The notes under the pieces are model-generated. The model did not search any database. It was not told the origin of the DNA and saw nothing but the letters and a program-made list of their open reading frames with translations. This document shows positions 4,210-60,530 of a stretch of 64,000 nucleotides of DNA, one piece after another; the first letter of the stretch is position 1; each line of letters opens with the position of its first letter. Source of the stretch: Curvibacter sp. AEP1-3 (GTDB lineage Bacteria; Pseudomonadota; Gammaproteobacteria; Burkholderiales; Burkholderiaceae_C). The position numbers and the translations under genes were made by a program. The stretch spans positions 3,591,845 through 3,655,844 of the forward strand of contig NZ_CP015698.1 in NCBI RefSeq assembly GCF_002163715.1. Reading direction: 5' to 3'.

Positions 4210-5994
4210 TTATCGGGCGGCTGTGAGCAGCCACTCGCGGCGGAACAGCCAGTCCTGTACCTGCCAGAGGTTGTCCAGCGTGACTTCGCCGTCCTTGTGC
4301 CGGCTCTTCACGTGCCAGCGCTGCGCCAGCAGGGTGCACTGGGGTAGGCAAGACGGAGGCTCGTTCAAGTCTTCCTGCAGCCAGATCACGGCATCAAATT
4401 CATTCAGCAAGCGTGCCAAGCGTTCCTTGGGCGGCATTTCGGGATAGAGCGCGCCGGTGTTGCGGCCTTCAGCGTCATAGGGCGTGATGCGGGCGCCATG
4501 CAACTGGAAGTGATAGCGCTCGTACTGCCCGGTAAAGCCGTTGGGCACAGCGACCCGCTGGCCTTTCATTTGGGCTTCCATTGCAGGGCTGTAGCCTGCC
4601 TCGTCCTTGGAAATGGGCTGGACCATGAGCGTGAAGCAGCCATACACCGCAAGTACCGCTACAAGGCTGGCGTTGGCAGCCCATGATTTTCGATAAAAAC
4701 CGACTATGGCGCCCGCGATACCTGCGCTGGCAGCTATCAAAGTAATAGCGACTTCCGTGGTCGAGGCCATCCCCAACGTGCCCATGACCCAGCTGATACG
4801 CCCCAGCATCACCAGCGCCGGCAGGGTGATCAGCAGCGTCAGCCAGAACCAGACGCGCGGTAGCCGGTCCCACACCAGTGCCATGGCAATAGCCACCGCA
4901 GGCATGGCCGGAATCACATAGCGCTCCGAGCGCTGGTTGGGGATGGTGAACACCACCAGCCACACCACCACCCAGGCCAGAAGCACCCACAACGCGGGGC
5001 TCAGTCGCTTCGGCTGGAGCAGCGTGCCGGTGTGGCGCAAGGCCAGCAGGCAAAAGCCCAACACCGGCAGAGCCAGCAGGCCGCCGTTGGCCGGGTAAGC
5101 CAGCAACTGGGTCCACATGGGGTAAGGGCCGGAGAGGGCAGCTTGCCAGTAGCCCATGCTGCTGGACATCTTGCCCGCGTTCTCGGCCACGACAAACTCC
5201 TGCCAGACGCTTGCCGGGTCCGGGTCCAGCACAAACCACAAGGCAAAGATTCCAACGCCAATCAGCGTGCTCCAGCCCGTGCCTATGGTCGTGCGAATGG
5301 CCGGGCGCCAGCTCCAGGGCGTGCTCAGCAGCACCGCGCACCACAAGGCGGCAGCGGCCGGTGCCACCAGCGCAAAAGACTTGTAGGCTGCGCCCAAGCC
5401 CATCGCGATGCCGAACAAGGTGTAGGCGAGCGGGCCGGGCGTGGCGTCTGCCGGGTGCCCCATGCCCGTGGTGCTTTCACGCAAGCGCAGCCAAAGCACC
5501 CACCACATGGGCAAGGCCAGCCAGAAGGTTTCGGGTGCGGAGGTGAGGTACACCCGCCCGTAGCGGAAGGTGCAGAAAAACAGCAGATACAAGGCAGCCG
5601 CCACGCAGGCAGTGCGCAGGCGCTTGGATGCCTCGCTCATGCGATAGGCAAAAAACGCCAGCAAGGCAGTGGTGGCGAACGTGTAAATGATGCTGGGCAA
5701 GCGCAGTGCGAACAGACTCCAGGTCTGGCCCCAGCCACCTGCCACCATGGCCTGCCAGATCAGCAAGGGCGGTTTGGTATTGCGGGTGCCCACCAGTTCG
5801 GACTGCAGTGGCAGCCAGTGGCCGCTCTCGGCAGTCATGCGCGCGATGTGGATATACACCATCTCGTCGCCGTTGGTGGGCGCGTAACCACCACCCAGAC
5901 CGAACAGGTACAGCGCAGCTGCTACAAAAACAAGAGCTAGCCACGCACGTTCGGTGAGCGCTAGAGGCCCGAAAGGCTTGTGGATAGGCCCCAT
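4210..5994 (-). CDS. ArnT-like glycosyltransferase (GT-C fold, GT83/PMT family)
   Basis: Integral membrane enzyme predicted to move a sugar from an undecaprenyl-phosphate carrier onto a periplasmic acceptor such as lipid A or LPS core. The 594 residues start with a short cytoplasmic tail and a membrane helix, then the first periplasmic loop with the acidic pair D43-E44 (NGDEMVY) expected for GT-C catalysis. About a dozen helices and a soluble C-terminal domain follow. It is the last gene of a minus-strand operon with GT9 and GtrA genes. Two copies of the dispersed 49-base repeat lie inside it, near residues 10-25 (antisense) and near residues 415-428. Confidence 0.85.
   Translation of the reverse strand: MGPIHKPFGPLALTERAWLALVFVAAALYLFGLGGGYAPTNGDEMVYIHIARMTAESGHWLPLQSELVGTRNTKPPLLIWQAMVAGGWGQTWSLFALRLPSIIYTFATTALLAFFAYRMSEASKRLRTACVAAALYLLFFCTFRYGRVYLTSAPETFWLALPMWWVLWLRLRESTTGMGHPADATPGPLAYTLFGIAMGLGAAYKSFALVAPAAAALWCAVLLSTPWSWRPAIRTTIGTGWSTLIGVGIFALWFVLDPDPASVWQEFVVAENAGKMSSSMGYWQAALSGPYPMWTQLLAYPANGGLLALPVLGFCLLALRHTGTLLQPKRLSPALWVLLAWVVVWLVVFTIPNQRSERYVIPAMPAVAIAMALVWDRLPRVWFWLTLLITLPALVMLGRISWVMGTLGMASTTEVAITLIAASAGIAGAIVGFYRKSWAANASLVAVLAVYGCFTLMVQPISKDEAGYSPAMEAQMKGQRVAVPNGFTGQYERYHFQLHGARITPYDAEGRNTGALYPEMPPKERLARLLNEFDAVIWLQEDLNEPPSCLPQCTLLAQRWHVKSRHKDGEVTLDNLWQVQDWLFRREWLLTAAR
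4708..4750 (-). repeat. Dispersed 49-base repeat, copy inside the ArnT-like gene
   Basis: On the minus strand it reads GCTAT, seven bases, ATAGC, then TGCCA, GCGC, eleven bases, GCGCC. It is in the same orientation as the gene and codes for an alanine- and isoleucine-rich part of a membrane helix. Confidence 0.75.
5921..5969 (+). repeat. Dispersed 49-base repeat, copy at the ArnT-like N-terminus
   Basis: Plus-strand copy, antisense to the gene. It aligns without gaps; the 3' half is perfect (GCGCTAGAGGCC) and the first stem is degraded (GCTAC / AGAGC). It encodes part of the N-terminal tail and first membrane helix. Confidence 0.7.
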
Positions 5995-6001
5995 GGTCTG
6001 C

Positions 6002-6484
6002 TCAGTCGCGCTTGCGTTTGAAGGTCCAACGGTCGTTGGCCAGAAAGTTGCTTACGCTGGCGGCCACAATGGCGATGATGTTTGCCAGGCGGTAATCCAT
6101 GCTGCCAGACAGCAATAGGGTTAGCACATATTGCATGCCGCTGCCGAATGCGGAGGCTGTGACGTACTGCCCGAACTCCATGCCCAAGAGGCGCAGGCTC
6201 ACCGGTTGCACCTCGCCCGCTTCCAGGGTCTTGACCCGGTCGGACCAGGTCCACAACCGGTTCCAAGTGAAGTTGTTCAGGGTGGCCAGTGCGATGGCCA
6301 GAGCCAGCGAGAAGTAGGGCTTGTTGTAGCCGGCTTCGATGTGGTTGAACAGGTACTCGTGCCCGAAGTGCAAGACCGCCAAGTTCACCACCGTGCCGCT
6401 GGCACCGACGATGCCGAACTTGATGTAGCGGTAGCGCTCCAGCAGCCCGAGTGCCCAGAGCACCAAACGTTGCACAGCGCTCAT
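6002..6484 (-). CDS. GtrA family membrane protein
   Basis: Small four-helix membrane protein (160 residues) of the GtrA/DPMS family, thought to flip undecaprenyl-phosphate-linked sugars across the inner membrane. Visible signatures are the opening YIKFGIVGASGTVVNLAVL stretch and the NFTWNRLWTW motif near residue 85. The start overlaps the end of the GT9 gene by 4 bases and the stop lies 7 bases before the ArnT-like start, so the three are translationally linked. Together they suggest supply (GtrA) and transfer (ArnT-like) of a lipid-linked sugar. Confidence 0.88.
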   Translation of the reverse strand: MSAVQRLVLWALGLLERYRYIKFGIVGASGTVVNLAVLHFGHEYLFNHIEAGYNKPYFSLALAIALATLNNFTWNRLWTWSDRVKTLEAGEVQPVSLRLLGMEFGQYVTASAFGSGMQYVLTLLLSGSMDYRLANIIAIVAASVSNFLANDRWTFKRKRD

Positions 6485-7728: not shown

Positions 7729-7737
7729 GGGCAGTGC

Positions 7738-16901: not shown

Positions 16902-17519
16902 TTGATGAACACGTGGTTGCTACACCGCGGTGCCAAACCGTGCCTGCTTTTGGCGATTTGCGCTCCCTTGGCCTATCTGGTGTGGGCTGCGGTGGCCGAA
17001 CAGTTGGGTGCAAATCCGGCTGAAGCCCTGATCCGGTCCACAGGAGATTGGACCTTGCGTTTGCTCTGCCTGACGCTGTTGATCACCCCACTACGGGTCG
17101 TCACTGGCTGGTCCGGATTAGCCCGCTTTCGCCGCATGGTGGGCGTTTCGACTTTTTGCTACGGCCTTCTTCACTTGGCTGCTTACAGCTGGTTGGACAT
17201 GGGGCTGGAGCTTGCTGACATCGTTGTCGACATCGTAAAGCGGCCGTTTATTCTGGTCGGCTTTGCAGGGATGGTGTTGCTCACTGCGTTGGCTGCCACG
17301 TCCTTCAACCGGGCGATCAAAGCGATGGGGGCAAAGCGGTGGCAGACTTTGCACCGAAGTGTGTACGCGATTGCTGTATTCGCCATCCTCCACTTCTTCT
17401 GGATGCGCGCCGGCAAAAACAATTTCGCAGAGGTGGCGGTATATGCCGCCATTCTGAGTGCTTTGCTCGGGTGGCGTGCCCGGAATTTTTGGATAAAAAG
17501 GACTGCTGGCGCCCGTTGA
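16902..17519 (+). CDS. msrQ: Haem-binding membrane subunit MsrQ
   Basis: Inner-membrane b-type haem protein that passes electrons from the quinone pool or a flavin reductase to MsrP. The 205 residues form about six helices, with family signatures GDWTLRLLCLTLLITPLR and the histidine in RRMVGVSTFCYGLLHL. The last six codons and the TGA stop lie inside a copy of the dispersed 49-base repeat, so the natural C-terminus appears to have been shaped by that element. Confidence 0.93.
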   Translation: MMNTWLLHRGAKPCLLLAICAPLAYLVWAAVAEQLGANPAEALIRSTGDWTLRLLCLTLLITPLRVVTGWSGLARFRRMVGVSTFCYGLLHLAAYSWLDMGLELADIVVDIVKRPFILVGFAGMVLLTALAATSFNRAIKAMGAKRWQTLHRSVYAIAVFAILHFFWMRAGKNNFAEVAVYAAILSALLGWRARNFWIKRTAGAR

Positions 17520-17549
17520 ATATGCGCGAGCAGCTATTCTTTTTATAGC
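17500..17549 (-). repeat. Dispersed 49-base repeat, copy over the msrQ stop
   Basis: Minus-strand copy with a perfect first stem (GCTAT, seven bases, ATAGC) and GCGC, eleven bases, GCGCCAG. It supplies the last codons and stop of msrQ and fills the gap up to the convergent lysA. Confidence 0.85.
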
Positions 17550-17551
17550 GT

Positions 17552-18835
17552 TTAGAGCAGCTTTTCGCCGCGGATCTGGTCGGCAAAGCTGTCGCGCTGA
17601 CGGATCAAATGGCTCTGTGCACCGTCCACCAACACCTCGGCAGCTTTAGGGCGGGAGTTGTAGTTGCTTGACATGCTCATGCAGTAAGCGCCTGCCGACA
17701 GAACTGCGAGCTTGTCGCCTGACTGCACTTGCAGTGTGCGGTCGTGACCGATCCAGTCCCCGCTCTCGCACACCGGGCCCACTACGTCAAACACTTCAGC
17801 GCCCGATGATTGAGAGGCCGCCTGCTTAACAGGCACGATGGTGTGGAAGGCCTGGTACATGGCCGGGCGGGGCAGGTCGTTCATGGCCGCGTCCACGATA
17901 CAGAAATTCTTCTGTTCTCCGGGCTTCATGTACAGAACCTCAGTCACACAGACGCCTGCGTTACCCACCAGGGAGCGTCCGGGCTCAATCATGAGCTGCC
18001 GCTGGCCGAAGCCACGTGTGTCGAGCTTGGCGAGCAGCTTGTGCCACAGGGCGTCGGCAGCCGGAGGCGTGTCTCCGTTGTAGTTGATACCCAAGCCGCC
18101 GCCGAAGTCGATATGGTGAATGGCGATGCCTGCGGCTTCAATCGACTCCACCAGATCCAGCATGCGGTCCATGGCATCGAGGTAGGGCGTTTCCTCCGTG
18201 ATCTGGGAGCCGATGTGGCAGTCGATACCCACGACCTTCAGGCCGGGCAGCGCGGCAGCGCGCTGGTAGGTCATCAGCGTGCGTTCGTGCGCGATGCCGA
18301 ACTTGTTGCCTTTGAGGCCGGTGGAGATGTAGGGGTGCGTCTTGGGGTCGACGTTGGGGTTGACGCGGATGCTGATAGGGGCCTGCATGCCCATGCCGAG
18401 CGCGACCTCGTTCAAGACATCGATCTCGGCTTCGCTTTCCACGTTGAAGCAGCCGATGCCAACTTCCAGGGCGCGGGCCATTTCAGCACGTGTTTTTCCG
18501 ACGCCAGAAAAAATGACCTTGCCAGCATCGGCACCGGCGGCCAGGACTCGCGCTAATTCGCCTTCAGACACGATGTCGAAGCCGCATCCGGCTTTGGCGA
18601 ACAATTGCAGAATGGCCAAGGAAGAGTTGGCCTTCATCGCATAGCAAATGCGGGCATTGCGCCCTGCAAAGCCGCGCTGGTAGGCCGCGAGCGCGTCCAG
18701 CATGGAGGCCTTGGAATAAACAAACAGCGGCGTACCATGGGTGCTGGCCAACGCATCCAGCGAGCAGCCCTCCACGTGGAGCTGACTGTTCTCATAATGG
18801 ACGTGGGGCTGGCCGGGTAGAAGAGTGGCGCTCAT
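17552..18835 (-). CDS. lysA: Diaminopimelate decarboxylase
   Basis: Pyridoxal-phosphate enzyme that forms lysine from meso-diaminopimelate. The 427 residues carry the PLP lysine K68 (CYAMKAN), the HIGSQI block near residue 205 and the IDFGGGLGI phosphate-binding loop near 245. The start at 18835 gives the normal family length; the reading frame upstream for 44 codons is only overlap with lptM. The ATG overlaps the lptM stop by 4 bases, the classic lptM-lysA arrangement. Confidence 0.95.
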   Translation of the reverse strand: MSATLLPGQPHVHYENSQLHVEGCSLDALASTHGTPLFVYSKASMLDALAAYQRGFAGRNARICYAMKANSSLAILQLFAKAGCGFDIVSEGELARVLAAGADAGKVIFSGVGKTRAEMARALEVGIGCFNVESEAEIDVLNEVALGMGMQAPISIRVNPNVDPKTHPYISTGLKGNKFGIAHERTLMTYQRAAALPGLKVVGIDCHIGSQITEETPYLDAMDRMLDLVESIEAAGIAIHHIDFGGGLGINYNGDTPPAADALWHKLLAKLDTRGFGQRQLMIEPGRSLVGNAGVCVTEVLYMKPGEQKNFCIVDAAMNDLPRPAMYQAFHTIVPVKQAASQSSGAEVFDVVGPVCESGDWIGHDRTLQVQSGDKLAVLSAGAYCMSMSSNYNSRPKAAEVLVDGAQSHLIRQRDSFADQIRGEKLL

Positions 18836-27627: not shown

Positions 27628-28734
27628 ATGACAATTCAGGCGCACCAAACCGTAAACATTTCTTTGGCCGAACGCAGCTACCTGATTCACATCGGTGGCG
27701 AACTCATTGACAACCCAGAGATCTTCGCTGGCTTGCCCAATGGCAAAACGGCAGTCATTGTGAGTAACACTACTGTGGCCCCGTTGTATGCGGAGAAGCT
27801 AAAAGTTGCTCTCGCTGGAAAGTATTCCAAAGTGCTGGCCATGGAACTCCCTGATGGTGAGTCTTACAAGCATTGGGAAACTTTGAACTTGATTTTCGGT
27901 GTGCTGTTGCAGAACACCTGCGATCGAAAAACTGTCCTGTTTGCTTTGGGGGGAGGGGTCGTCGGGGACATGACCGGATTCGCTGCCGCAAGCTATATGC
28001 GCGGCGTACCCTTTGTTCAGGTGCCGACCACCCTCTTGGCACAAGTGGACTCTTCAGTGGGCGGAAAAACCGGAATAAACCATCCACTTGGTAAAAACAT
28101 GGTGGGTGCCTTCTACCAACCTCAAATGGTGGTGTGTGACCTTGATGTATTGAAAACACTGCCGCCAAGGGAGGTCAGCGCTGGACTGGCGGAAGTTATC
28201 AAATACGGTCCCATCGCCGATATGGAGTTTCTGTCTTGGATTGAGAACCATATGGAGAGCTTGGTGCGACTGGATGCCAAGGCGCTAGCGCACGCAGTAA
28301 AGCGAAGCTGTGAGTTGAAGGCCTGGGTTGTGGGGCAAGATGAGCGTGAGTCCGGCCTGCGTGCCATTTTGAATTTCGGCCACACCTTCGGGCATGCAAT
28401 CGAAGCGGGCTTGGGTTATGGCGAATGGTTGCACGGCGAGGCTGTTGGCTGCGGCATGGTCATGGCTGCCCACCTATCCCAGCGCCTGGGCTTGGTGGAT
28501 ACAGCGTTTGTCGAACGACTCACCCGGATCATTGCATCGGCGGGATTACCAATCCGTGGCCCCAGCTTGGATGCCTCCGATAACGCCGGTCGCTATCTTG
28601 AACTCATGCGCCATGACAAGAAGTCCGAGGCCGGTGAAATCCGGTTCGTCTTGATTGACGGTCCCGGGCGCGCGGTTATGCGTGCAGCGCCTGACACCTT
28701 GGTGCGAGAAGTCATCGATACATGCTGCGCTTGA
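27628..28734 (+). CDS. aroB: 3-Dehydroquinate synthase
   Basis: NAD- and metal-dependent cyclase that makes 3-dehydroquinate from DAHP. The 368 residues fit the family. Visible motifs: [15 protein letters not shown] near residue 108, [20 protein letters not shown] near 132 and the metal-site histidines in [11 protein letters not shown] and WLHGEAV. It works with aroK upstream. The 3' side holds a copy of the dispersed repeat. Confidence 0.96.
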
Positions 28735-28736
28735 CT

Positions 28737-28785
28737 GCTATCGAAAACATAGCTGCTTGCGCGTATTGAACGGGCGCTAGACGCT
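28737..28785 (+). repeat. Dispersed 49-base repeat, copy between aroB and the dgt-like gene
   Basis: One of the best copies: GCTAT, seven bases, ATAGC, TGCTT, GCGC, eleven bases, GCGCTAG. It starts 2 bases after the aroB stop and fills the gap to the next start, so it would lie in that gene's leader. Confidence 0.88.
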
Positions 28786-28791
28786 GTATTG

Positions 28792-29964
28792 ATGACCAAT
28801 CTCCAACCCTATGCATGCCAGCCTGACCAGAGTAGAGGTCGGCGCTTTCCTGAGGCTGATGCTCCGACACGTACACCCTTTCAGCGCGACAGGGACCGTA
28901 TCGTCCACTCTACGGCCTTCCGTCGACTGGTCTACAAAACGCAAGTCTTCATCAATCATGAGGGCGACCTGTTCAGAACCCGTTTGACTCACTCGTTGGA
29001 GGTTGCACAGCTCGGCCGGTCTATGGCGAGAACCTTGGGCTTGAATGAAGATCTGGTAGAAACCATTGCTTTGGCGCATGACCTGGGCCACACTCCTTTC
29101 GGCCACGCCGGACAAGACGCGCTACATGAATGCATGGTCTCTTACGGTGGCTTTGAGCACAATCTCCAGAGTCTGCGCGTAGTGGATCATCTGGAGGCCC
29201 GTTACCCGGGTTTTGACGGGTTGAATCTCTGTTTTGAGTCCCGCGAAGGCATTTTGAAGCATTGCTCCAAAAACAATGCGATGTCCTTGGAGCTATGGGA
29301 AGCTGACTTCCCCGGGCAAAGTGGCGGGGTCGCCAAGCGATTCTTGCAAGGTGGGCAACCGAGCCTGGAAGCGCAACTGTGTAATTTGGCTGACGAGATT
29401 GCCTACAACTGCCACGATATAGATGACGGAGTCCGGTCGGGACTGCTCAGCATGGACCAGATGTTGGAAGTGCCCTTGTTCCGGAAGTATTCGGACCAAG
29501 CGGCAAGTCAACAGTCGGATTTCGCGCAAGCCAAAAAACAGCGGCGTTGGCTCTACGAGACCATACGACTTATGCTCAGTGATATGGTGTATGACGTGTT
29601 GGCTGCAACCCGCGCTCAACTGGAAGAGGTAATGCCCCAAGACGTGAACGCTGTACGCGTAGCACCGGCGCTAGTGCTGTTCAGTGCCGAAATGCGCGCG
29701 CAAACCCGGGAGCTCAAGCACTTCTTGTTCAAGCACCTCTATCGGCATCAGCAAGTAATGGACACCATGGGGAAGGCCAAGTGCGTTGTGGGGGACTTGT
29801 TTGATGCCTATGTCGCTTCACCCGCAGAAATGCACCAGGATGACGAGGCAATGAAAGACATCTCTCTTCAACGCCAGGTCAGTGACTACATCGCGGGTAT
29901 GACAGACCGATTTGCTTTGCGGGAGCATGAGCGGCTCACTGGGCAGAGGTTGTTCCATGTCTGA
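28792..29964 (+). CDS. dgt: Deoxyguanosinetriphosphate triphosphohydrolase-like protein (HD domain)
   Basis: Predicted dNTP triphosphohydrolase of the type 2 subfamily, 390 residues. The HD-domain metal ligands are visible: H in TRLTHSLEVAQ, the HD pair in ALAHDLGHTPFGHAG, and a later D in YNCHDIDDG. The opening GRRFPE and FQRDRDRIVHSTAFRRL stretch is characteristic. ATG at 28792 is preferred to the TTG directly before it. The gene overlaps the DUF1415 gene by 8 bases. Confidence 0.92.
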   Translation: MTNLQPYACQPDQSRGRRFPEADAPTRTPFQRDRDRIVHSTAFRRLVYKTQVFINHEGDLFRTRLTHSLEVAQLGRSMARTLGLNEDLVETIALAHDLGHTPFGHAGQDALHECMVSYGGFEHNLQSLRVVDHLEARYPGFDGLNLCFESREGILKHCSKNNAMSLELWEADFPGQSGGVAKRFLQGGQPSLEAQLCNLADEIAYNCHDIDDGVRSGLLSMDQMLEVPLFRKYSDQAASQQSDFAQAKKQRRWLYETIRLMLSDMVYDVLAATRAQLEEVMPQDVNAVRVAPALVLFSAEMRAQTRELKHFLFKHLYRHQQVMDTMGKAKCVVGDLFDAYVASPAEMHQDDEAMKDISLQRQVSDYIAGMTDRFALREHERLTGQRLFHV

Positions 29965-32891: not shown

Positions 32892-33587
32892 ATGGCACGA
32901 CTTCCCCGCTTGGCAATTGCCGGACATCTGCACCACGTTTTGCAGCGCGGTGCGCATGGCCAGTCCATCTGCTCGGCCACGGAGGATTACGAAGAGCTGC
33001 TGAATGCGATACACCTCGCGGCCCGAAAACATCAGGTCGCTGTGCATGGTTATGTGCTGCTGCAGGATCACTTCCATTTGTTATTGACGCCTGCTAATGA
33101 GCAGGGCTTGGCGCTCATGATGCAGTCCTTGGGGCGTACTTATGTGCGCTACTTCAACCGCAAATACGCCCGCAAAGGTACCTTGTGGGAGGGGCGCTTC
33201 AAATCTGCGGTTTTGCAGCCACGCCACGCCTTAGCGGCACTGACATTTATGGACCTCCATCCGCAGCGCGCCGGTATCGGATTGCCGCCTTCAGACTATC
33301 CGTGGACCAGTTACTCGCATTACAGCGGCGCCATCATGGACAAGCGTATCGTGACCCACCCCGCCTATTGGGCATTGGGCAATACGCCTTTCGCGCGCGA
33401 GGCGGCCTACCAAGCGGCGGCCCGGGAGGGCCTCAATTCAGTGCAACTCCATCAAATTACTGACTCGGTGACCCGTGGATGGGCGTTGGCGGACGATGAT
33501 TTCGTTGCAGAGTTGCAAAAAAATACCTCGCGACGCCTGGTTCGCAGAACGCCAGGACGGCCCCGCAAGGTAACTGCTCCAGACTGA
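32892..33587 (+). CDS. REP-associated tyrosine transposase (RAYT, Y1/HUH family)
   Basis: Single-strand DNA transposase of 231 residues. The HUH metal motif is H60-F61-H62 (LQDHFHLLL), the nucleophile is probably Y84 (GRTYVRYFNRKY), and the GTLWEGRFKS block is the RAYT signature. The N-terminal HHVLQRG is also typical. A basic C-terminus (TPGRPRK) may bind DNA. RAYTs are domesticated enzymes that act on short palindromic genomic repeats rather than moving themselves. A copy of the 49-base repeat starts 5 bases after its stop codon. Confidence 0.9.
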   Translation: MARLPRLAIAGHLHHVLQRGAHGQSICSATEDYEELLNAIHLAARKHQVAVHGYVLLQDHFHLLLTPANEQGLALMMQSLGRTYVRYFNRKYARKGTLWEGRFKSAVLQPRHALAALTFMDLHPQRAGIGLPPSDYPWTSYSHYSGAIMDKRIVTHPAYWALGNTPFAREAAYQAAAREGLNSVQLHQITDSVTRGWALADDDFVAELQKNTSRRLVRRTPGRPRKVTAPD

Positions 33588-33592
33588 ATATC

Positions 33593-33638
33593 GCCCCTAG
33601 CGCTTACTGGATAAGCGCAGACAGCTATTCATTTGATG
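33593..33638 (-). repeat. Dispersed 49-base repeat, copy next to the RAYT gene
   Basis: Minus-strand copy whose second stem is the best in the window: GCGCTTA and TAAGCGC pair perfectly around five bases. The first stem is degraded (CACAT instead of GCTAT). It begins 5 bases after the transposase stop. Confidence 0.82.
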
Positions 33639-33643
33639 TGTCC

Positions 33644-33682
33644 CTATTTGATTTTTTTGAATCTGATGAGAGATTCAAATAG
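33644..33682. repeat. Nested inverted repeats upstream of gltB
   Basis: TTTGAATCT (33656-33664) and AGATTCAAA (33671-33679) form a perfect 9-bp inverted repeat around six bases. An outer CTATTTGA (33644) also pairs with TCAAATAG (33675). The inner repeat ends 26 bases before the sigma-54 -24 box and could be an activator site or a remnant of a mobile repeat. Confidence 0.6.
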
Positions 33683-33705
33683 TGTCTGACCCCATTTAAA
33701 TTTCT

Positions 33706-33764: not shown

Positions 33765-38537
<4,773 letters not shown>

Positions 38538-46529: not shown

Positions 46530-46545
46530 CCTCGGAATTCCATTT

Positions 46546-46593
46546 GCTATGACTTTTGTAGCTGCTCCCGCACGTCTATCCACCGCTGATGCC
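46546..46593 (+). repeat. Dispersed 49-base repeat, copy over the hisD start
   Basis: The 5' half is a good match (GCTAT, seven bases, GTAGC, TGCTC); the 3' half is weaker (CCGCTGATGCC). The hisD ATG at 46549 overlaps the first arm of the stem. Confidence 0.6.
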
Positions 46594-47865
46594 GCATTTG
46601 AAGCGCAATTCAAGGCGCGCTTGCATTGGTCTGCGGATACCGATGCGGCTATCGAGCAGCGTGTGGCCGACATCCTGGCTGACGTGCAGCAGCGTGGCGA
46701 TGCGGCGGTGCTGGAGTACACCGCCCGTTTCGATGGCCTGAACGTCACCGACATGAAGGCGTTGGAGCTGACCCAGGCCGAGCTCAAGGCGGCTTTCGAC
46801 AGTATTCCCGCAGATCAGCGTGCTGCGCTGGAGGCGGCCGCAAAGCGGGTGCGCAGCTACCACGAAGCGCAAAAGAAGGCCTCTGGCGAGAGCTGGAGCT
46901 ACCGCGACGAAGACGGCACGCTCTTGGGCCAAAAGGTCACGCCCTTGGACCGCGTGGGCATTTATGTGCCCGGCGGCAAAGCGGCTTATCCCAGCAGCGT
47001 GTTGATGAACGCCATCCCTGCCCACGTAGCAGGGGTCGGCGAAATCATCATGGTAGTACCTACGCCTAAAGGTGAAAAGAATGCCCTGGTGCTGGCCGCC
47101 GCCTATGTGGCCGGCGTGACGCGTGCGTTCACCATCGGCGGCGCGCAAGCGGTGGCCGCATTGGCCTATGGCACCGCCACCATCCCTGCCGTGCACAAAA
47201 TCACCGGCCCCGGCAACGCCTATGTGGCCGCCGCCAAGCGCCGCGTGTTCGGTACCGTGGGCATCGACATGATTGCCGGCCCTAGCGAGATTCTGGTGCT
47301 GGCCGACGGCACCACCCCCCCGGACTGGGTGGCCATGGATTTGTTCAGCCAAGCCGAGCATGACGAGCTGGCGCAAAGCATTTTGCTGTGCCCGGACGCG
47401 GCCTACATCGAACAAGTGCAGCAAAGCATCAACCGCCTGCTGCCCGAAATGCCACGCGCCGAGATCATTGCCAAAAGCCTCACTGGCCGTGGCGCCTTGA
47501 TCCAGACCCGCAGCATGGAAGAGGCCTGCGAGATTAGCAACCGCATTGCGCCCGAGCATTTGGAGGTCTCCAGCAACGCCCCCCATAAGTGGGAACCTCT
47601 GCTCAAGCACGCCGGTGCGATCTTCCTGGGCGCCTACACCTCCGAGAGCCTGGGCGACTACTGCGCCGGCCCCAACCACGTGCTGCCTACCAGTGGCACT
47701 GCGCGATTTAGCAGCCCGCTGGGCGTATACGACTTTCAGAAGCGCAGCAGCCTCATCGAGGTGAGCGAGCAGGGCGCCCAAGCGTTGGGGCAGATTGCCT
47801 CTGTGCTGGCGCATGGCGAGGGCCTGCAAGCCCATGCACGTGCGGCGGAAATGCGATTGAAGTAA
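46549..47865 (+). CDS. hisD: Histidinol dehydrogenase
   Basis: Zinc enzyme that carries out the last two oxidations to histidine. The 438 residues contain the [19 protein letters not shown] and [15 protein letters not shown] signatures and the zinc/substrate residues in [10 protein letters not shown] (near residue 265) and the C-terminal segment with GPNHVLPT. It follows hisG by 19 bases. Its first 15 codons lie in a repeat-like sequence. Confidence 0.97.
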
Positions 47866-47867
47866 GA

Positions 47868-48281
47868 ATGGGCGTATCAGGACGACCAATCCACATGCGC
47901 ACCACACTTCATACTCCCCACGCCTTCTCCACACTGCGGCAAGCGGCTGCGTGTTTTGTTCTGGGCCTTGTCGCAGTTTCGACGGCCCAGGCCATGACGA
48001 TCCGCGAAATGCGGGCCTTGGAGAAGACGGAAAAGCAAGGCAGCACCTATACCGACTACTACCTGGTCGGTGTCATGGAAGGCGCGCTCGAGGCCCACAC
48101 CCAAGCGGTACGCGCAGGTGCCAGCGCCAGCATCTGCCTCAATGGCCGCCGTCTGGAGCCCAGCATGGCCAAGAACCTGTACACCACCGAACTGAAGCGC
48201 AACGCCGACCTGTATGAGGCCGACATGCCGGTGCAGCTGGTGATGGTGAATGCGCTGGGGACGGTGTACCCCTGCCTCTGA
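47868..48281 (+). CDS. Small exported protein of unknown function
   Basis: Protein of 137 residues (128 if the start is the ATG at 47895) with a signal peptide ending near A-Q-A. The mature part of about 95 residues has two cysteines (in ASICLNG and the final VYPCL) that could form a disulfide, and a YLVGVMEGALEAH helix. The layout recalls small Rap1a/Tai-type periplasmic immunity proteins, but the similarity is too weak to assign. It begins 3 bases after hisD and marks the start of the accessory patch in the his cluster. Confidence 0.7.
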   Translation: MGVSGRPIHMRTTLHTPHAFSTLRQAAACFVLGLVAVSTAQAMTIREMRALEKTEKQGSTYTDYYLVGVMEGALEAHTQAVRAGASASICLNGRRLEPSMAKNLYTTELKRNADLYEADMPVQLVMVNALGTVYPCL

Positions 48282-48301
48282 GGCGTTGGGGCAATGGATT
48301 T

Positions 48302-48350
48302 GCTATCAATTCGGTAGCTACTCCGGCATATGCGCTGGGCGCTAGCGGCT
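48302..48350 (+). repeat. Dispersed 49-base repeat, copy between the exported protein and GFA genes
   Basis: GCTAT, seven bases, GTAGC, TACTC, a degraded second stem (CGGC), eleven bases, GCGCTAG. It is followed by an A/T-rich AAAAAAGATATTCTTTTTCT stretch that is itself nearly palindromic and may terminate both converging genes. Confidence 0.78.
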
Positions 48351-48388
48351 AAAAAAGATATTCTTTTTCTAGCGGGTGAAGTAGATTT

Positions 48389-49794: not shown

Positions 49795-50943
49795 ATGACT
49801 ACCTCTGCCGACTTTGCTGCTGACGTTCAGGCGCTTATTGCGCGCCGCATCCGCCAGGACGTGCAGGGCATGCATGCCTACGCGGTCCAGGATTCCAAAG
49901 ACATGGTCAAGCTCGATGCCATGGAAAACCCGTTTTCCCTGCCACCTGAACTGCAAGCCGAGTTGGGCCAGCGCCTGGGCGCGCTGGCGCTCAACCGCTA
50001 CCCCGATGGCCGGGTCAACGACTTGCGCACCGCCTTGGCGCAGTACGTGGGCATGCCCGCAGGCCACGACATCATGCTGGGTAATGGTTCGGACGAGCTG
50101 ATCTCTCTGCTCTCCATGGCCTGCGACGTACCCGCCCAGCCCGGCGAGGCCCGCCCCGTGGTGCTGGCGCCCACGCCCGGCTTTGTGATGTACGCCATGA
50201 GCGCCCAGCTGCAGGGGCTGGACTTTGTGGGCGTGCCGCTGACTGAAGACTTTGCCCTCGATGTGCCTGCCATGGTGCAGGCCATTGTCGAGAAGCAGCC
50301 CGCCATCGTGTACCTGGCCTACCCCAACAACCCCACCGCCAATTTGTGGGATGCCGACGCCATGGCCACCGTGATTGCCGCAGCCAGGCAGGCCGGGAGC
50401 ATCGTGGCGGTGGACGAGGCCTACCAACCGTTTTCCAGCAGCACCTACATGGACGTGATCCGTGCCAACCCCGCCACCCATCCCCATGTGGTGCTGATGC
50501 GCACCCTGAGCAAGTTCGGCCTGGCCGGTGTGCGCTTGGGCTACATGGTGGGGCCGGCTGCGCTGATTGCGCAGGTGGACAAGGTGCGCCCGCCGTACAA
50601 CATCAGCGTGCTGAACTACGAGTGCGCCTTGTTTGCCCTAGAGCATCAAGATGCTTTTGCCGTGCAAGCCCAAGAGATATGTGCGCAACGCGCTATTCTT
50701 TTAGGAGCGTTGCGTGCGATGCCCGGTGTGAAAGCGTGGGACAGCGATGCCAACATGGTGCTGGTGCGCTTCCCCGGCTCGGACGATGCTGCGCAAAAAA
50801 CATTCGACGGATTGAAGGCGCGCGGGGTGCTGGTCAAGAACGTTTCTAAAATGCACCCATTGCTGGCCCGCTGTTTGCGTTTGACCGTCGGCACCGCCGA
50901 AGAAAACGCCCGACTGATTCAGGCCTTGCAGGAAACCTTATGA
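49795..50943 (+). CDS. hisC: Histidinol-phosphate aminotransferase
   Basis: PLP enzyme that converts imidazole acetol phosphate to histidinol phosphate. The 382 residues include [11 protein letters not shown] near the start, YPNNPTAN near residue 178, the aspartate in VDEAYQPF and the PLP lysine in [14 protein letters not shown] near 241. It overlaps hisB by 4 bases. A degenerate copy of the dispersed repeat sits at 50659-50708, where the codon choice changes (CGCTATTCTTTTA). Confidence 0.96.
50659..50708 (-). repeat. Degenerate dispersed-repeat copy inside hisC
   Basis: On the minus strand it matches ATAGC, GCGC with correct spacing and the flanking GCT and GGC ends, but both second arms are altered. 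It is the weakest of the eleven copies. Confidence 0.45.
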
Positions 50944-53046: not shown

Positions 53047-53826
53047 GTGTTAGCCAAAAGAATCATTCCTTGCCTGGACGTGACCGGCGGTCGCGTCGTC
53101 AAAGGCGTCAACTTTGTCGAGCTGCGAGACGCCGGAGACCCGGTGGAAATTGCCGCCCGCTATAACGACCAGGGCGCTGACGAACTCACGTTTCTCGACA
53201 TCACCGCGACCAGTGATGGCCGTGACCTGATCCTGCACATCATTGAGGCGGTGGCCTCCCAGGTGTTCATTCCGCTTACCGTCGGTGGCGGCGTGCGTAC
53301 TGTGGACGATGTACGCCGTCTGCTGAATGCCGGCGCTGACAAAACCAGTTTCAACTCCGCGGCCATAGCCAACCCGCAAGTCATTGAAGACGCCTCGCTC
53401 AAGTATGGCGCGCAGTGCATTGTGGTGGCCATAGATGCCAAGCGCCGCTCCGAAGAAGACGCCTTGGTCCGTGGCCCCGGTTGGGATGTGTACAGCCATG
53501 GCGGCCGCAAAAACACCGGCCTCGATGCTGTGGCCTGGGCGACCGAGATGGCCCGGCGCGGCGCTGGCGAAATCCTGTTGACCAGCATGGACCGCGATGG
53601 CACCAAAAGCGGTTTTGACCTCGCTCTGACACGCGCAGTGGCTGATGCCATCAGCGTGCCGGTGATTGCCAGCGGCGGTGTGGGTAACCTCGACCACCTA
53701 GCAGACGGTGTGCAGCAGGGCGGTGCCGATGCGGTGTTGGCTGCCAGCATTTTCCACTACGGTGAATACACAGTAGGCCAAGCCAAAGCGCGCATGGCGG
53801 AGCGGGGCATTCCAGTCAGAATTTAA
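53047..53826 (+). CDS. hisF: Imidazole glycerol phosphate synthase, cyclase subunit HisF
   Basis: TIM-barrel partner of HisH, 259 residues. The key aspartates are D11 ([13 protein letters not shown]) and the one in [11 protein letters not shown] near residue 130; [13 protein letters not shown] and [11 protein letters not shown] are the phosphate loops. It starts with GTG at 53047. A copy of the dispersed repeat fills the gap to hisI. Confidence 0.96.
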
Positions 53827-53834
53827 GTGTTTTT

Positions 53835-53883
53835 GGCCTCTGGCGTCCGTCAATGCTGCGCGAGCAGCTATCAAAGAAATAGC
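53835..53883 (-). repeat. Dispersed 49-base repeat, copy between hisF and hisI
   Basis: Minus-strand copy with perfect first stem (GCTAT, seven bases, ATAGC), TGCTC, GCGC, eleven bases, ACGCCAG and AGGCC. It occupies nearly the whole gap and ends 3 bases before the hisI ATG, so it also replaces the ribosome-binding region. Confidence 0.88.
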
Positions 53884-53885
53884 AA

Positions 53886-54299
53886 ATGGAATCTCCGACA
53901 AACCCTCCAGTGAGCTGGATCAAGCACATCCGCTGGGACTCCAAGGGTCTGGTGCCTGTCATCGCCCAAGAGCAAAGCAGCGGTGATGTGCTTATGTTCG
54001 CGTGGATGAACCGCGAAGCTTTGCAAAAGACGGTGGAACTGGGGCAGGCGGTGTATTTCAGCCGTTCGCGGGACAAGCTCTGGTTCAAGGGCGAGGAGTC
54101 CGGCCATGTGCAGAAAGTCCATGAAATCCGCATGGACTGTGACAGTGACGTTATCTTGCTCAAAGTGACCCAGCTTGGCCACGAGCCCGGCATCGCTTGC
54201 CACACCGGCCGCCACAGCTGTTTCTTCAGTGTGTTGAAAGACGGTGTATGGCAGGCGGTGGACCCTGTGCTCAAAGACCCTGAATCCATTTACAAATAA
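53886..54299 (+). CDS. hisI: Phosphoribosyl-AMP cyclohydrolase
   Basis: Zinc enzyme of histidine biosynthesis, 137 residues, single-function form. The metal residues are in MDCDSD and in CHTGRHSCF near residue 105; [14 protein letters not shown] text (here M-F-A-W-M-N-R-E-A) is typical. Ribosome-binding sequence is poor because the repeat copy ends just before the ATG. hisE follows as a separate gene. Confidence 0.95.
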
Positions 54300-57024: not shown

Positions 57025-57030
57025 GCTACA

Positions 57031-57055: not shown

Positions 57056-57057
57056 GT

Positions 57058-58200
57058 TTAGCGCTTCTGCGCTTTGGGCTTGGGACGGACGCCGGGTGTG
57101 AGTTTGAGCTTCAAGGTCTCGTCTTTGCGTTGGACCACAAAGCTCGCCTCAGTGCCTGGCTTCAACGAAGATACCAAGGACAGCAGTTGGGTTACGTCCG
57201 GCACCGGTTTCCCGGCAATGCTCACGATGACATCGCCAGGGCGGATGCCTGCTTGCGCGGCCGGGCCGTTCTGCAATACGCCGGTGATGATGACCCCTTC
57301 TTTGGTTTTGACATCAAAGGTCTCAGCCAATTCGGCAGACAGGTCGTTGGGCTCCACACCGATCCAGCCACGGGTGACTTTGCCGTCTTTCACAATGTCT
57401 TCGAGCACTTGCTTGGCGGTAGCGACCGGAATGGCAAAGCCAATGCCCATGCTGCCGCCTGAGCGTGAATAAATGGCCGTGTTGATACCCAGCAAATTGC
57501 CGTTGGTGTCGACCAATGCGCCGCCGGAGTTGCCGGGGTTGATGGCAGCGTCTGTTTGTATAAAGTTTTCAAAAGTGTTGATGCCGAGTTGGTTGCGGCC
57601 CAGCGCACTGACGATGCCGCTGGTCACGGTCTGGCCGACACCGAAGGGGTTCCCGATGGCGAGCACTTGGTCACCTACCTGCAAGGAGTCAGAGTTGCCA
57701 AGCACGATGGTGGGCAGTTTGTCCATTTCCACTTTCAGCACGGCAAGATCGCTGTCCGGGTCCGTACCGATGACCTTGGCAGGTGCCTTACGTCCGTCAT
57801 TGAAGAACACCTGAATCTCGTCGGCCTCTTCAATCACGTGGTTGTTGGTCAGGATGTAGCCCTCGGGGCTGACGATGACGCCGCTGCCCAGTCCTCCCTG
57901 TGGTTCGTCACCCTGGTCGCCATAGAAGAAGCGGAACCACGGGTCGTTGGCGTTGGGGTTCTTGACGGCCGCTTTGCTGGTGTTGATGCTCACTACGGCC
58001 GAGGAGGCTTTTTGTGCAGCGGCGCGAAGGCTGCCGGGAGGAATTTCGCCTGCTGCCGGTGCGGGTGTCTCAAAGAGGGAGATGGCCCCCCGTGCTCCGC
58101 TGCCGTGGCCGATCCATTGCGGTTTCAAGGTGGCCACCACAAAGTAGGCTGCCAACAGCACCGTGCAGGTTTGGGAAAACAGCAACCAAAGTCTTTTCAT
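57058..58200 (-). CDS. DegS/AlgW-like periplasmic serine protease (S1C, one PDZ)
   Basis: Membrane-anchored periplasmic protease of 380 residues. An N-terminal helix (residues about 5-22) is not followed by a clear cleavage site. The trypsin-like triad is H in LTNNHVIEEAD, D in DSDLAVLKVE and S in PGNSGGALVD. A single PDZ domain fills the C-terminal part, which favours DegS/AlgW (one PDZ) over DegP (two). The start at 58200 is chosen because the upstream frame is not family-like. A role in the envelope stress response is inferred. Confidence 0.9.
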   Translation of the reverse strand: MKRLWLLFSQTCTVLLAAYFVVATLKPQWIGHGSGARGAISLFETPAPAAGEIPPGSLRAAAQKASSAVVSINTSKAAVKNPNANDPWFRFFYGDQGDEPQGGLGSGVIVSPEGYILTNNHVIEEADEIQVFFNDGRKAPAKVIGTDPDSDLAVLKVEMDKLPTIVLGNSDSLQVGDQVLAIGNPFGVGQTVTSGIVSALGRNQLGINTFENFIQTDAAINPGNSGGALVDTNGNLLGINTAIYSRSGGSMGIGFAIPVATAKQVLEDIVKDGKVTRGWIGVEPNDLSAELAETFDVKTKEGVIITGVLQNGPAAQAGIRPGDVIVSIAGKPVPDVTQLLSLVSSLKPGTEASFVVQRKDETLKLKLTPGVRPKPKAQKR

Positions 58201-58281
58201 GCAATCACTCACCAATGGGCACACAACAGTGCGTGCTTTGCGCAAATTGTAGGCTGCTAAGCTTTGCGTTTACCCTGATTT

Positions 58282-58683
58282 ATGGCGAAACCCCGCAGCA
58301 TCATCTTTATCCAGCCTGAGGCCCCCGCCAAGCCGGCATGGGGTGCGGTCTGCAATGGATGCGGCGTTTGCTGTCTGGCGGAACCCTGTCCTGTGGGGAT
58401 GGTGTTGAGCAGGCGTCGAACAGGAGCGTGCGAGGCGCTTCTTTGGGTGGAAGAAGAGCATGTTTATCGCTGTGGCGCGTTGACCGAGCCTCAACACATG
58501 TTGGGTCATTGCTTGCCGCGGTGGATGCAGTTTGCAAAGAAACCATTGGCTTCTTTGCTACGAAGGCTCGCCCCCCGTTGGATATCGGCCGGCTCGGGGT
58601 GTGACAGCACGCTGGAAGTGGCGAGCCCGTCTGGGACAATCCAGCCGAACAAAACGGAGACGAACAAGTCCGCCAACTCATGA
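58282..58683 (+). CDS. Cysteine-rich protein, YkgJ-like
   Basis: Protein of 133 residues with a cysteine cluster CNGCGVCCLAEPC near residues 24-36 and later cysteines in GACEAL, YRCGAL and GHCLPRW, suggesting a zinc or iron-sulfur site as in the YkgJ family. Function is unknown. It overlaps the Nif3-like gene by 4 bases and so is likely co-translated with it. Confidence 0.7.
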   Translation: MAKPRSIIFIQPEAPAKPAWGAVCNGCGVCCLAEPCPVGMVLSRRRTGACEALLWVEEEHVYRCGALTEPQHMLGHCLPRWMQFAKKPLASLLRRLAPRWISAGSGCDSTLEVASPSGTIQPNKTETNKSANS

Positions 58684-59435
58684 TTGAACGCCACGCACTT
58701 CTCCAATCCCTTCAGACGCTGCTGCAACCCGAGCGTTTCAAAGACTATTGCCATAACGGGCTGCAGGTTGAGGGACGAACAGACATTCGACACCTGGTTT
58801 CCGGCGTCACGGCGAGCGAGGCGTTGATTCAGGCAGCCATAGACTGCGGCGCAGATGCCATCCTGGTGCACCATGGTTTGTTCTGGAAAGGCTTCGACGG
58901 CCAGGTGAGTGGCTGGATGCGTAAGCGTCTTTCTTTGCTGCTTTCTCATGACATCAATTTGTTCGCCTACCACCTGCCGCTGGATGCACATCCGGTGCTG
59001 GGTAACAACACACAATTGGGGCGGCTTCTCGGTCTGCAATCACACGCCAGCTTCGGCGAGCAATCGCTGGGGCTCTTGGGGAGTTCGTCCTCCGGCGCGT
59101 GGGAGTCAGACGCCGCACTGGCGCAGCACGTGGAAGCAGTCCTGGATCGGCCCGTAACCTTGGTGTCTGGCCGGCGAGGCCCCGTGAGCCTGGTGGGCTG
59201 GTGCACCGGAGGGGCGCAAGGCTACTTTGAACCCGCCATTGCAGCCGGGGCGCAGGTATTCATTACCGGGGAAATATCTGAACCCCAAGCCCACTATGCA
59301 CGCGAATGCGGTGTGTCTTACATCGCCTGCGGGCACCACGCCAGTGAGCGCTACGGAGCACCAGCTGTGGCGTCCAAAATGGCGGCGGATTTCGGAATCC
59401 GTCACACCTTTATCGATATTCCGAACCCCGCATGA
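58680..59435 (+). CDS. Nif3-like dinuclear metal centre protein (YbgI family)
   Basis: Toroid-forming metal-binding protein of 251 residues. The metal-site motif is ILVHHGLFWKG near residue 61, with further ligands in the LPLDAHPVLGNN and CGHHASERYG segments. The family has been linked to GTP cyclohydrolase-like or peptidase activity, but its biological role is unsettled. It overlaps both neighbours by 4 bases. Confidence 0.9.
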   Translation: MIERHALLQSLQTLLQPERFKDYCHNGLQVEGRTDIRHLVSGVTASEALIQAAIDCGADAILVHHGLFWKGFDGQVSGWMRKRLSLLLSHDINLFAYHLPLDAHPVLGNNTQLGRLLGLQSHASFGEQSLGLLGSSSSGAWESDAALAQHVEAVLDRPVTLVSGRRGPVSLVGWCTGGAQGYFEPAIAAGAQVFITGEISEPQAHYARECGVSYIACGHHASERYGAPAVASKMAADFGIRHTFIDIPNPA

Positions 59436-60478
59436 AATCACACACTATTGCCGTCACCATGGGTGACGCTGCGGGTATAGGCCCTGAAATCATTGCCAAG
59501 GCTTTCCGCGAGGAGCCTGAAGTCCTGCGCGCCTGTTTTGTGGCCGGGGATGTGCAGGCCATGCGGCGGGCCGCGCAGCAGGTCGCCGTCGGACAGGCGC
59601 AGTTGCCAGTTTTTCAGATCAGTACTCCTGAGGAGGCTCTGCTTGCGCCCCCGCGTTGCATTCCCGTGCTGCAGATCGGCGATGCGTTGGCGCCGGTTGC
59701 CATGGGGCAAGTGCAGGCTTGTGCCGGAGAATTTGCCGGGCGCTGCGTTACTTGGGCGGCTGATGCGGCCTTAAAAGGCGAGATTGCCGCCTTGGTCACT
59801 GCTCCGATTCACAAAGAGGCCCTAAGTGCGGCGGGTAAGCCCTACGACAATTACCCCGGACATACCGAGCTTTTGCAGGCGCGGGCTGCAGTAGCCCGTA
59901 ACGTATCCATCGCAGAAATGCCGATGCGCATGATGTTAGCCAACGAGGCTTTGCGGACAGTACTCGTCAGCATCCATGTGTCGTTGCGGGAAGCCTTGGA
60001 TGCAGTGACGTTTGACAATGTGCTGGAAACCATACGCATTACCCGCATGGCTTTGCGGGATGTGCTGGGGCGCGAGCCGCGTATCGCGGTGGCCGGTTTG
60101 AATCCGCATGCGGGGGAGGGTGGCTTGTTTGGCCGGGAAGAGATTGAGACGATCTCGCCTGCGATCGCAGCGGCGCGTGCAGAAGGTGCTGAAGTTCACG
60201 GGCCCATCGCGCCGGATACCGTATTCATGCGAGCACGCCACGCTGATGATCATCCCGGTGAGTTTGACGTGGTCGTGGCGATGTACCACGACCAAGGATT
60301 GATCCCTGTGAAATACATGGGCGTAGAGCAGGGTGTGAATGTGACCCTGGGCTTGCCGCTGGTCCGTACCAGTCCGGACCACGGCACAGCGTTTGACATT
60401 GCCGGCCGGGGGCTCGCCAGTGCGGAAAGCTTGATCGAGGCAGTCCGCATGGCCAAGCGCCTCGCAAATTTGACTTAA
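59432..60478 (+). CDS. pdxA: 4-Hydroxythreonine-4-phosphate dehydrogenase
   Basis: Zinc- and NAD-dependent enzyme of vitamin B6 biosynthesis, 348 residues. GDAAGIGPEI near the start, TAPIHKEALSAAG near 128, PGHTELL near 148 and the C-terminal AMYHDQGLIPVKYMG are all family signatures; histidines in PGHTEL and AMYHDQ are metal ligands. A repeat copy lies just after the stop. Confidence 0.95.
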   Translation: MKSHTIAVTMGDAAGIGPEIIAKAFREEPEVLRACFVAGDVQAMRRAAQQVAVGQAQLPVFQISTPEEALLAPPRCIPVLQIGDALAPVAMGQVQACAGEFAGRCVTWAADAALKGEIAALVTAPIHKEALSAAGKPYDNYPGHTELLQARAAVARNVSIAEMPMRMMLANEALRTVLVSIHVSLREALDAVTFDNVLETIRITRMALRDVLGREPRIAVAGLNPHAGEGGLFGREEIETISPAIAAARAEGAEVHGPIAPDTVFMRARHADDHPGEFDVVVAMYHDQGLIPVKYMGVEQGVNVTLGLPLVRTSPDHGTAFDIAGRGLASAESLIEAVRMAKRLANLT

Positions 60479-60481
60479 ATC

Positions 60482-60530
60482 GGCTTCCGACGCCTGTGGG
60501 TAATGCGCAAGCAGCTACTAAATTTATAGC
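60482..60530 (-). repeat. Dispersed 49-base repeat, copy between pdxA and mscL
   Basis: Minus-strand copy: GCTAT, seven bases, GTAGC, TGCTT, GCGC, eleven bases, GCGTCGG and AAGCC. It starts 4 bases after the pdxA stop and fills most of the convergent gap to mscL. Confidence 0.85.

Follow-up and report, generated by a model that had tools for sequence, protein, structure and literature searches.

The 64,000-nucleotide stretch of the Curvibacter sp. AEP1-3 chromosome analyzed here (the window; positions 3,591,845 to 3,655,844 of contig NZ_CP015698.1) carries eleven copies of a dispersed two-part repeat, both between and inside genes. What is best supported is that this repeat is a genome-wide DNA recognition motif with a core under selection; any function assigned to it is an inference from there. 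Most of its sites stay in place between orthologous loci, and comparison of homologs shows that in several genes the motif occupies pre-existing codons with no insertion of element length. Our preferred reading, to which we assign a probability of roughly 0.4, is a self-recognition DNA motif of ~66 bp that was gained in place, is kept by selection, and is likeliest akin to a DNA-uptake sequence. We give even odds to the broader proposition that part of the Comamonadaceae carries a previously undescribed 66-bp bipartite code with ~600 sites, a selected core, genome-wide dialects, and a putative reader serving either self-DNA uptake or chromosome organization.

The genome containing the window (G000; 4.38 Mb, two contigs) was compared with relatives, G and L codes being labels for genomes and for fetched loci or stretches, and a 364-kb stretch of G000 served as the sample for matrix counts, gene context, and site comparison. 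The eleven copies listed in an earlier note on this DNA are real, aligning without gaps at all 11 positions with 4 on the plus strand and 7 on the minus strand. In a consensus scan, 10 places in the window match 21 or more of the 30 informative bases, whereas an order-2 Markov shuffle yields 0.22 on average. R1, the sequence-only model used for the E values of the window copies, recovers 9 copies at E ≤5.3e-6 and a tenth at 5944 with E 8.3e-4. The copy at 50659 is absent from the R1 results at E up to 10 and reaches 28.9 bits with W2, a refined matrix that has no hit of 9 bits or higher in the reversed sequence. This copy is outside the W2 training set, but its G592 orthologue is inside it, and because of that orthologue we rank it as the weakest of the eleven. 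Across the whole genome, a strict pattern (a search string that fixes stem 1, counted genome-wide with the pattern read backwards as control) matches 67 times, versus 0 times reversed, while the unrefined 70-position matrix picks out 49 sites in the 364 kb at 8 bits or higher, and none either in a single order-3 Markov sequence or in the reversed stretch. The earlier note had named a missing excess over shuffled sequence as grounds for dropping the repeat, and both counts (67 versus 0 and 49 versus 0) show that excess. W2 finds 52 copies at 9 bits or more in the 364-kb stretch, a density of ~1 per 7 kb that extrapolates to ~590-630 copies per genome.

The conserved unit is longer than the ~49 bases first described. 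Boundaries read from the 67 strict and 84 refined copies place it at ~66 nt, from about -1 to 64 counted from the first G of GCTAT. It consists of module 1, the inverted repeat GCTAY-N2-WWW-N2-RTAGC; a linker, TGCTN; module 2, GCGC-N11-GCGC; and an A/T-rich tail, YAGNGGC-N2-ATTT-N7-AA. A/T-rich centers lie near positions 9, 30, 53, and 63, GC content over 70 positions is 48%, and the information in model R2 is 0.63 bits x 70 positions.

Comparison of coding copies between species shows that the motif core is under purifying selection at the DNA level. Between G000 and G509, G590, or G592, changes at third codon positions of module 1 number 4/108, 0/28, and 0/17, against 540/4433, 377/1405, and 380/1026 in the flanks (Fisher P 0.004, 0.0003, and 0.0005; the same G000 copies enter all three tests, which are not independent). 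The copies were found in G000, and finding bias should therefore work against third-position constraint. Non-coding copies show 5/205 changes in module 1 in G509 and 4/75 in G590, versus 120/1394 and 49/277 in their flanks; the corresponding comparison in G592 is not significant (7/60 versus 43/206). The wider core including module 2 is less constrained, with third-position changes of 14/206, 1/57, and 7/36. Codon positions 1 and 2 that lie inside copies and outside the core change more than those of the flanks (in G590, 28/163 and 25/163 versus 64/1407 and 34/1408). Copies sit in tolerant protein segments, and their core bases are kept even where the protein is indifferent. The possibility raised earlier, that orthologous genes carry the same bases purely by protein conservation, is excluded by the fact that synonymous core positions are the conserved ones.

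The sites themselves are stable across relatives. The sister species G509, whose flanks are ~94% identical to those of G000, is occupied at the same place for 48/49 testable sites, which speaks against ongoing mobility. The same is true of 15/15 sites in G590, 10/11 in G592, and 7/13 in the more distant G418. The copies at the hisD start and the gltB end are found in all seven stretches from seven genomes, at an offset of -7 or -8 from hisD and 79-80 nt before the end of gltB. Among stretches holding the respective gene, the ferric-reductase copy is present in 6/6 with its offset within 2 nt, the hisA copy in 5/5 (within 1 nt in G509, G418, G590, and G592), and the aroB copy in 5/6 (within 2 nt in G509, G418, G590, and G534; the sixth, in G592, is weak at 11.1 bits). 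Occupancy is lower at hisC and at copy 1 in arnT, each 4/5 and each shared with G509, G590, and G592 but not G418; at copy 2 in arnT (3/5; shared with G590 and G592, missing from G509 and G418); at pdxA (3/5; in G509 and G590, not G418 or G592); and at a Rap1a-like open reading frame (ORF) (3/5; in G509 and G592, not G590 or G418). At six G000 copies that are absent in G418, the site lengths differ by 0, 0, -21, -1, 0, and -6, and there is no element-length gap at any of these empty sites. As a separate observation, at the place that corresponds to the G000 copy at stretch position 191481, contig C1 of G509 is ~60 kb longer between the two flanks; this region holds four copies including the shared one (60, 16, 37, and 36 bits), which is below the usual density.

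How copies come to lie within genes was addressed by comparing loci with and without a copy, as had been proposed, and this comparison yields mostly shared sites, a gapless rlmI, one 52-bp difference, and a variable imuB linker. In rlmI, whose copy scores 64.8 bits and lies at position 86544 in the 364-kb stretch, 56/59 loci were used, L198, L199, and L200 being left out for poor cover, and these comprise 11 carriers (own included, at least 20 bits) and 45 non-carriers. The segment is 42 residues long in 11/11 carriers and in 26/45 non-carriers; the other 19 non-carriers have 38-45 residues, with one of 55. Motif scores at this locus form a gradient between 65 and -49, several of them intermediate. 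At copy 1 in arnT, residues are missing in 0/120 homologues, and a few homologues have extra residues directly after the copy. HisC has no gap at the element relative to PDB 3euc and 8bj1, and MurG has none relative to 1f0k, with two extra residues in 3s2u. Thus some genes, but not all of them, support formation in place. The uptake of an element into reading frames proposed in the earlier note does not stand as a general origin, given the lack of an element-length gap in rlmI, arnT, hisC, and murG, while insertion may account for the sites upstream of hisH, where the 52-bp difference lies, and in imuB and dapF.

A gapless overlay on codons could also arise if single-stranded element DNA annealed to partly matching sequence at replication forks and was copied there. 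We regard such stamping as very improbable. It would fit the high information content of the motif, the 40-64 bits of the rlmI difference that are due to nonsynonymous changes, and the presence of 46/67 strict copies on one replication strand, but in an analysis of 27 rlmI orthologues synonymous codon changes make up 39 and 43 bits of the difference relative to L208 and L215, which together with the graded intermediates suggests stepwise adaptation; the best 150 copies, moreover, have no strand bias (78/150).

The two hairpins that gave the repeat its first description do not appear to be maintained as structures. In 85 sequences from four genomes, 70.1% of stem positions are paired, versus 69.8% with shuffled partners, the covariation score of the stems is 0.120 versus 0.121 shuffled, and the fourth pair of stem 1 (4-14) is unpaired in 33/85. 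In the first 67 copies stem 1 is nearly invariant because the search pattern fixed it. A hairpin function is rejected for lack of covariation. Covariation being absent, the arms therefore act as two independent inverted-repeat halves. By analogy, these arms resemble the half-sites of a protein operator and are candidates for such a role.

Gene context and reading frames were taken from a simple home-made gene caller. In the 364-kb stretch, 28/52 copies fall inside predicted genes, 7 run across a gene end, and 17 lie between genes, so that the original estimate of about half overlapping coding sequence was right; with a coding fraction of 0.893, intergenic DNA is ~threefold enriched for copies. 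Strict copies are more often intergenic (40/67, with 16 inside genes and 11 across ends). The 38 strict copies with context fall in 15 convergent, 21 tandem, and 2 divergent gaps, where the available gap positions number 2175, 19049, and 7996, respectively, and the nearest stop codon is at most 19 nt away in 29/36. The motif favors gene 3' ends and avoids promoters. Inside genes, copies on the same strand use frame 0 in 10/16 cases and those on the opposite strand use frame 1 in 12/14; these two dominant frames account for 7 and 8 of the 16 strict copies inside genes.

Intergenic copies lying directly after stop codons are what would be expected of an RNA-level element, a terminator or an RNA-binding site in transcripts. 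This has very little going for it otherwise: strict copies have the same orientation as the nearest upstream gene in 20 cases and the opposite in 16, the 30 copies overlapping a gene by at least 30 nt are divided 16 to 14, the stems do not covary, and Rfam gives no match in the window at gathering scores and none at E ≤1 around copy 3.

A site of chromosome architecture is a further alternative, in which a motif gained in place would be bound by a putative nucleoid-associated or chromosome-organizing protein and would have no part in uptake. Such a site would account for the observations equally. Several features are compatible with this, namely inverted-repeat modules that resemble operator half-sites and do not covary, the A/T-rich centers, and a sharp separation of motif-rich from motif-poor genomes. 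The top 150 copies (the best 150 of 3149 candidates genome-wide) are spread across the whole chromosome, and no two sites are closer than 630 bp in the G000 stretch (P 0.014) or 969 bp in G590 (P 0.041), although the minimum distance fails to reach significance in G592 (P 0.30) and G413 (P 0.34); the site lists of G534 and G413 each include one place twice, once per strand. The four stretches show no significant regularity of spacing (P of the coefficient of variation 0.13, 0.11, 0.34, and 0.12), and replication polarity is inconsistent: the top 150 copies are on the leading strand in 78/150 cases (P 0.68), against 46/67 of strict copies, with origin and terminus placed by the GC skew of sparse pieces. 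So much information per site would also be unusual for a nucleoid protein. On balance we consider an architectural role unlikely, if less so than the other alternatives. The GC skew of the fetched G000 pieces suggests an origin at ~2.75 Mb and a terminus at ~0.55 Mb (assembly numbering of G000 C1), and a two-part split fitted to the orientation of strict copies agrees with 47/67 of them.

The motif is found only in part of one family, the named relatives being Comamonadaceae and Rhodoferax. In a draw of 300 genomes from the order, the strict pattern is present in 4 (own included), all from the organism's own family, of which 9 members were drawn, and in 0/291 genomes of other families; the backward control is present in 4 genomes with one hit each. 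Within the family, 68/299 genomes have the strict pattern and 2 have the backward control, which bears out, for part of the family, the earlier impression that the repeat is common in Comamonadaceae. These family and order counts represent presence and not copy number, as the strict pattern undercounts diverged lineages (G418 has 3 strict matches genome-wide versus 13 matrix hits in 100 kb). A broader model was applied to 24 family genomes, which were chosen (those without a RAYT-like gene, described below, their sisters, and some others) and not random. Counting matches among the best 150 candidates scored per genome, 12 of these genomes have at least 64 and 12 have 0-2, while six genomes of other families have 0. 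Two genera are mixed, with G368 and G546 rich versus G469 poor in one, and G204 and G482 rich versus G556 poor in the other. Lineages also differ in dialect at positions 21-23, with TCG in 24/49 copies of G000, CTG in 7/13 of G418, and TAG in 6/12 of G413. Among viral stretches fetched for the strict pattern (L242-L280), 27/39 have a full copy (at least 20 bits), and only 3 further copies are found in their 348 kb; these stretches may be prophage contigs with host flanks.

One window copy lies at the 3' end of a gene resembling the REP-associated tyrosine transposases (RAYTs) of repetitive extragenic palindromic (REP) sequences. No other gene of the genome matches PF01797 at E ≤0.001, and with NCBIfam REP_Tyr_transpos this one scores 44 bits, below the cut-off of 80. 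It invites the explanation that the motif is a REP-like repeat once mobilized by a RAYT-like Y1 transposase, its copies now mostly fixed and some of them domesticated. Examination of 36 RAYT loci (own included; mostly best protein matches) shows the flank motif GGGACNNATYA..RTAGC within 170 nt of RAYT ends in 22/36 and 0 times elsewhere in 103.6 kb, and the association of core and gene at these loci is real. Also, the G413 RAYT-flank copy shows, by eye, the second module of the copies dispersed in that genome. An insertion-like site of 52 bp and the leading-strand bias of strict copies (46/67) would fit as well. The distribution of the gene, however, is independent of that of the motif. A PF01797 gene is present in 280/299 family genomes, and the strict motif occurs in 64/280 genomes with the gene versus 4/19 without it (Fisher P 1.0; of the four motif-bearing genomes without it, two are only 70-74% complete). 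The complete genomes G547 and G561 have at least 149 and at least 150 motif matches and no PF01797 match, and conversely motif matches number 0, 0, and 1 in G049, G469, and G556, all of which have the gene. These numbers led us to reject the RAYT gene as a required partner, and it is dispensable for the motif now. Together with the lack of covariation, the lack of new insertions between sister species, the gapless origin in rlmI, and conserved sites at unrelated genes such as hisD and gltB, they make past mobilization by the transposase distinctly unlikely. The RAYT gene may be a historical source of the motif or simply another conserved site. The initial classification as a REP or bacterial interspersed mosaic element (BIME)-type non-autonomous element accordingly survives in its description of dispersed copies in and between genes and in the presence of a RAYT-like gene with the core in its flank, and fails with regard to hairpins, ongoing mobility, and insertion as the rule.

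Two other features were seen at the RAYT loci. Module 2 of the RAYT-flank copies seemed compensated by eye. A second block like GGGGTCAGA (window 33665-33705; flanks L065-L094) lies beside RAYT genes in 28/36 loci and occurs 10 times in the 364-kb stretch; it may be the transposase's own end.

In the preferred reading, that of an uptake-like self-recognition motif, a putative sequence-specific protein would read the motif, which by analogy with DNA-uptake sequences would tag self (core-genome) DNA. Fragments carrying the motif would be preferentially recognized, point changes would create the motif, and biased recombination would maintain it. It is because of this biased recombination that, under an uptake model, many bases could be held at hundreds of sites. 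Passages of PMC3630211 describe uptake sequences as having dialects, accumulating in the core genome, occupying permissive intragenic sites, being associated with gene ends, and being limited in their frames by a stop codon. The DNA uptake sequences (DUS) of Neisseriaceae and the uptake signal sequences (USS) of Pasteurellaceae, as portrayed in those passages, resemble our motif in being dispersed in and between genes of the core genome, with dialects, limited frames, and a gene-end association. They differ in length, at 10-12 bp against ~66 bp at ~1 per 7 kb here, and the organisms with the motif are outside both families.

A number of observations weigh against this reading. The best insertion-like case is a G418 copy upstream of hisH, where there is a clean 52-bp difference relative to four relatives. 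DapF has extra residues at its copy compared with the two solved homologues shown, its length being common to 119/121 family sequences, and the imuB linker is 34-38 residues in 8/121 sequences and 42-70 in the others, with 53 and 59 the commonest lengths. In rlmI, nonsynonymous changes relative to L208 and L215 amount to 40 and 64 bits, at least the synonymous share. The core adjoins RAYT genes in 21-22/36 loci, which suggests a historical link to the transposase, and the bias of strict copies toward the leading strand (46/67, P 0.003) is not predicted by an uptake-like motif. Known uptake sequences are several times shorter and denser than this one. Lastly, the motif contains more information than 600 sites would require, an excess that descent from a common mobile ancestor would also produce.

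Other known systems provide only partial parallels. REP sequences, REPINs (REP doublets forming hairpins), and their RAYTs resemble our case in having a RAYT-like gene in single copy, palindromic sequences dispersed in their hundreds, and a core beside the gene. Here, in contrast, the RAYT gene is neither necessary nor sufficient, the hairpins do not covary, more than half of the copies are inside genes (28/52, though 40/67 strict copies are intergenic), and sites are static across species, some of them across genera. Chi and KOPS (FtsK orienting polar sequences) are polar genome-wide chromosome motifs acting at the DNA level. Our motif is likewise a genome-wide DNA-level motif but is far longer, and its polarity is seen in strict copies and not in the top 150 (46/67 versus 78/150 on the leading strand, with ori and ter from sparse GC skew). 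The Rickettsia palindromic elements also lie in frame inside unrelated genes, as described in parts of PMC10969869; they are ~150-bp insertions that modify proteins, while rlmI, arnT, hisC, and murG show no element-length gap here, and dapF and the imuB linker are ambiguous in this regard. The betaproteobacterial repeat BRE, according to passages of PMC3110155, is 75-91 bp long with 69% GC (Bordetella copies), forms tandem arrays or variable-number tandem repeats, and has at most 29 copies; the same passages report it in Rhodoferax, Polaromonas, Delftia, and Acidovorax, with some copies wholly within coding sequence. It is thus like our motif as a betaproteobacterial repeat with copies in coding sequence, and unlike it in size (~66 bp here), GC content (48%), closest spacing (630 bp in the G000 stretch), and copy number (~600), a separation that rests on this description of BRE and not on its sequence.

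A literature search with 14 core letters found no paper. In searches on repeats in these genera, BRE was the only relevant repeat among the matches listed, and absence of the motif from print is limited to such searches. A term search of PMC3733652, PMC6006769, and PMC12306157 finds none of the genus or taxon names sought.

The copies of the window are listed in Table 1. Copy 1, from its translated sequence, probably encodes a membrane-helix-like segment, and the motif at the hisD start may touch translation initiation.

Table 1. Motif copies in the window and the RAYT-like gene beside copy 5.
Feature	Coordinates	Strand	Context	Score
Copy 1	4684..4753	-	Inside arnT-like glycosyltransferase gene (4210-5994, -), same strand	56.8 bits (W2)
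Copy 2	5917..5986	+	Opposite strand, near start of arnT-like gene	48.1 bits
Copy 3	17484..17553	-	Overlaps 3' end of ferric-reductase-like gene (16902-17519, +)	E 2.6e-17
Copy 4	28733..28802	+	Begins 2 nt past aroB stop codon	E 2.7e-15
Copy 5	33575..33644	-	Divergent copy at 3' end of RAYT-like gene; left arm GGGACACAT, not GCTAT	E 5.3e-6
RAYT-like Y1 (HUH) transposase gene	32892..33587	+	231 aa; PF01797	
Copy 6	38456..38525	-	Last codons of gltB, opposite strand	E 3.7e-11
Copy 7	46542..46611	+	Includes hisD start codon	E 1e-7
Copy 8	48298..48367	+	Intergenic, downstream of Rap1a-like ORF (47868-48281)	E 1.5e-8
Copy 9	50643..50712	-	Inside hisC, opposite strand	28.9 bits (W2)
Copy 10	53818..53887	-	Begins near hisA stop codon	E 5.4e-15
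Copy 11	60465..60534	-	Directly after pdxA	E 6.5e-15

Some further placements were seen in coding sequence. Certain copies encode the beginning of an N-terminus that looks like a signal peptide, e.g., MNKRSAIQFIAAGALLAGAGG (L125:17320-17925; L048 and L025 near 1478-1526), and a start codon lies within 15 nt for 3/16 strict copies inside genes. One gene of 1148 aa (L127:5306-8749) has three copies (64.0, 60.5, and 35.0 bits), and imuB holds two (56.5 and 72.3 bits).

More generally, a dispersed palindromic repeat near a RAYT gene need not be a mobile REP, and tests of occupancy, covariation, and synonymous sites can distinguish a mobile REP from a static DNA motif. If the preferred reading is true, a long DNA signal would constrain the choice of amino acids in many conserved proteins across part of a large family, and a sequence-specific reader would be implied. 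The motif would then define a third group of organisms with self-DNA motifs beside the Neisseriaceae and Pasteurellaceae, or else represent a new chromosome-organizing code.

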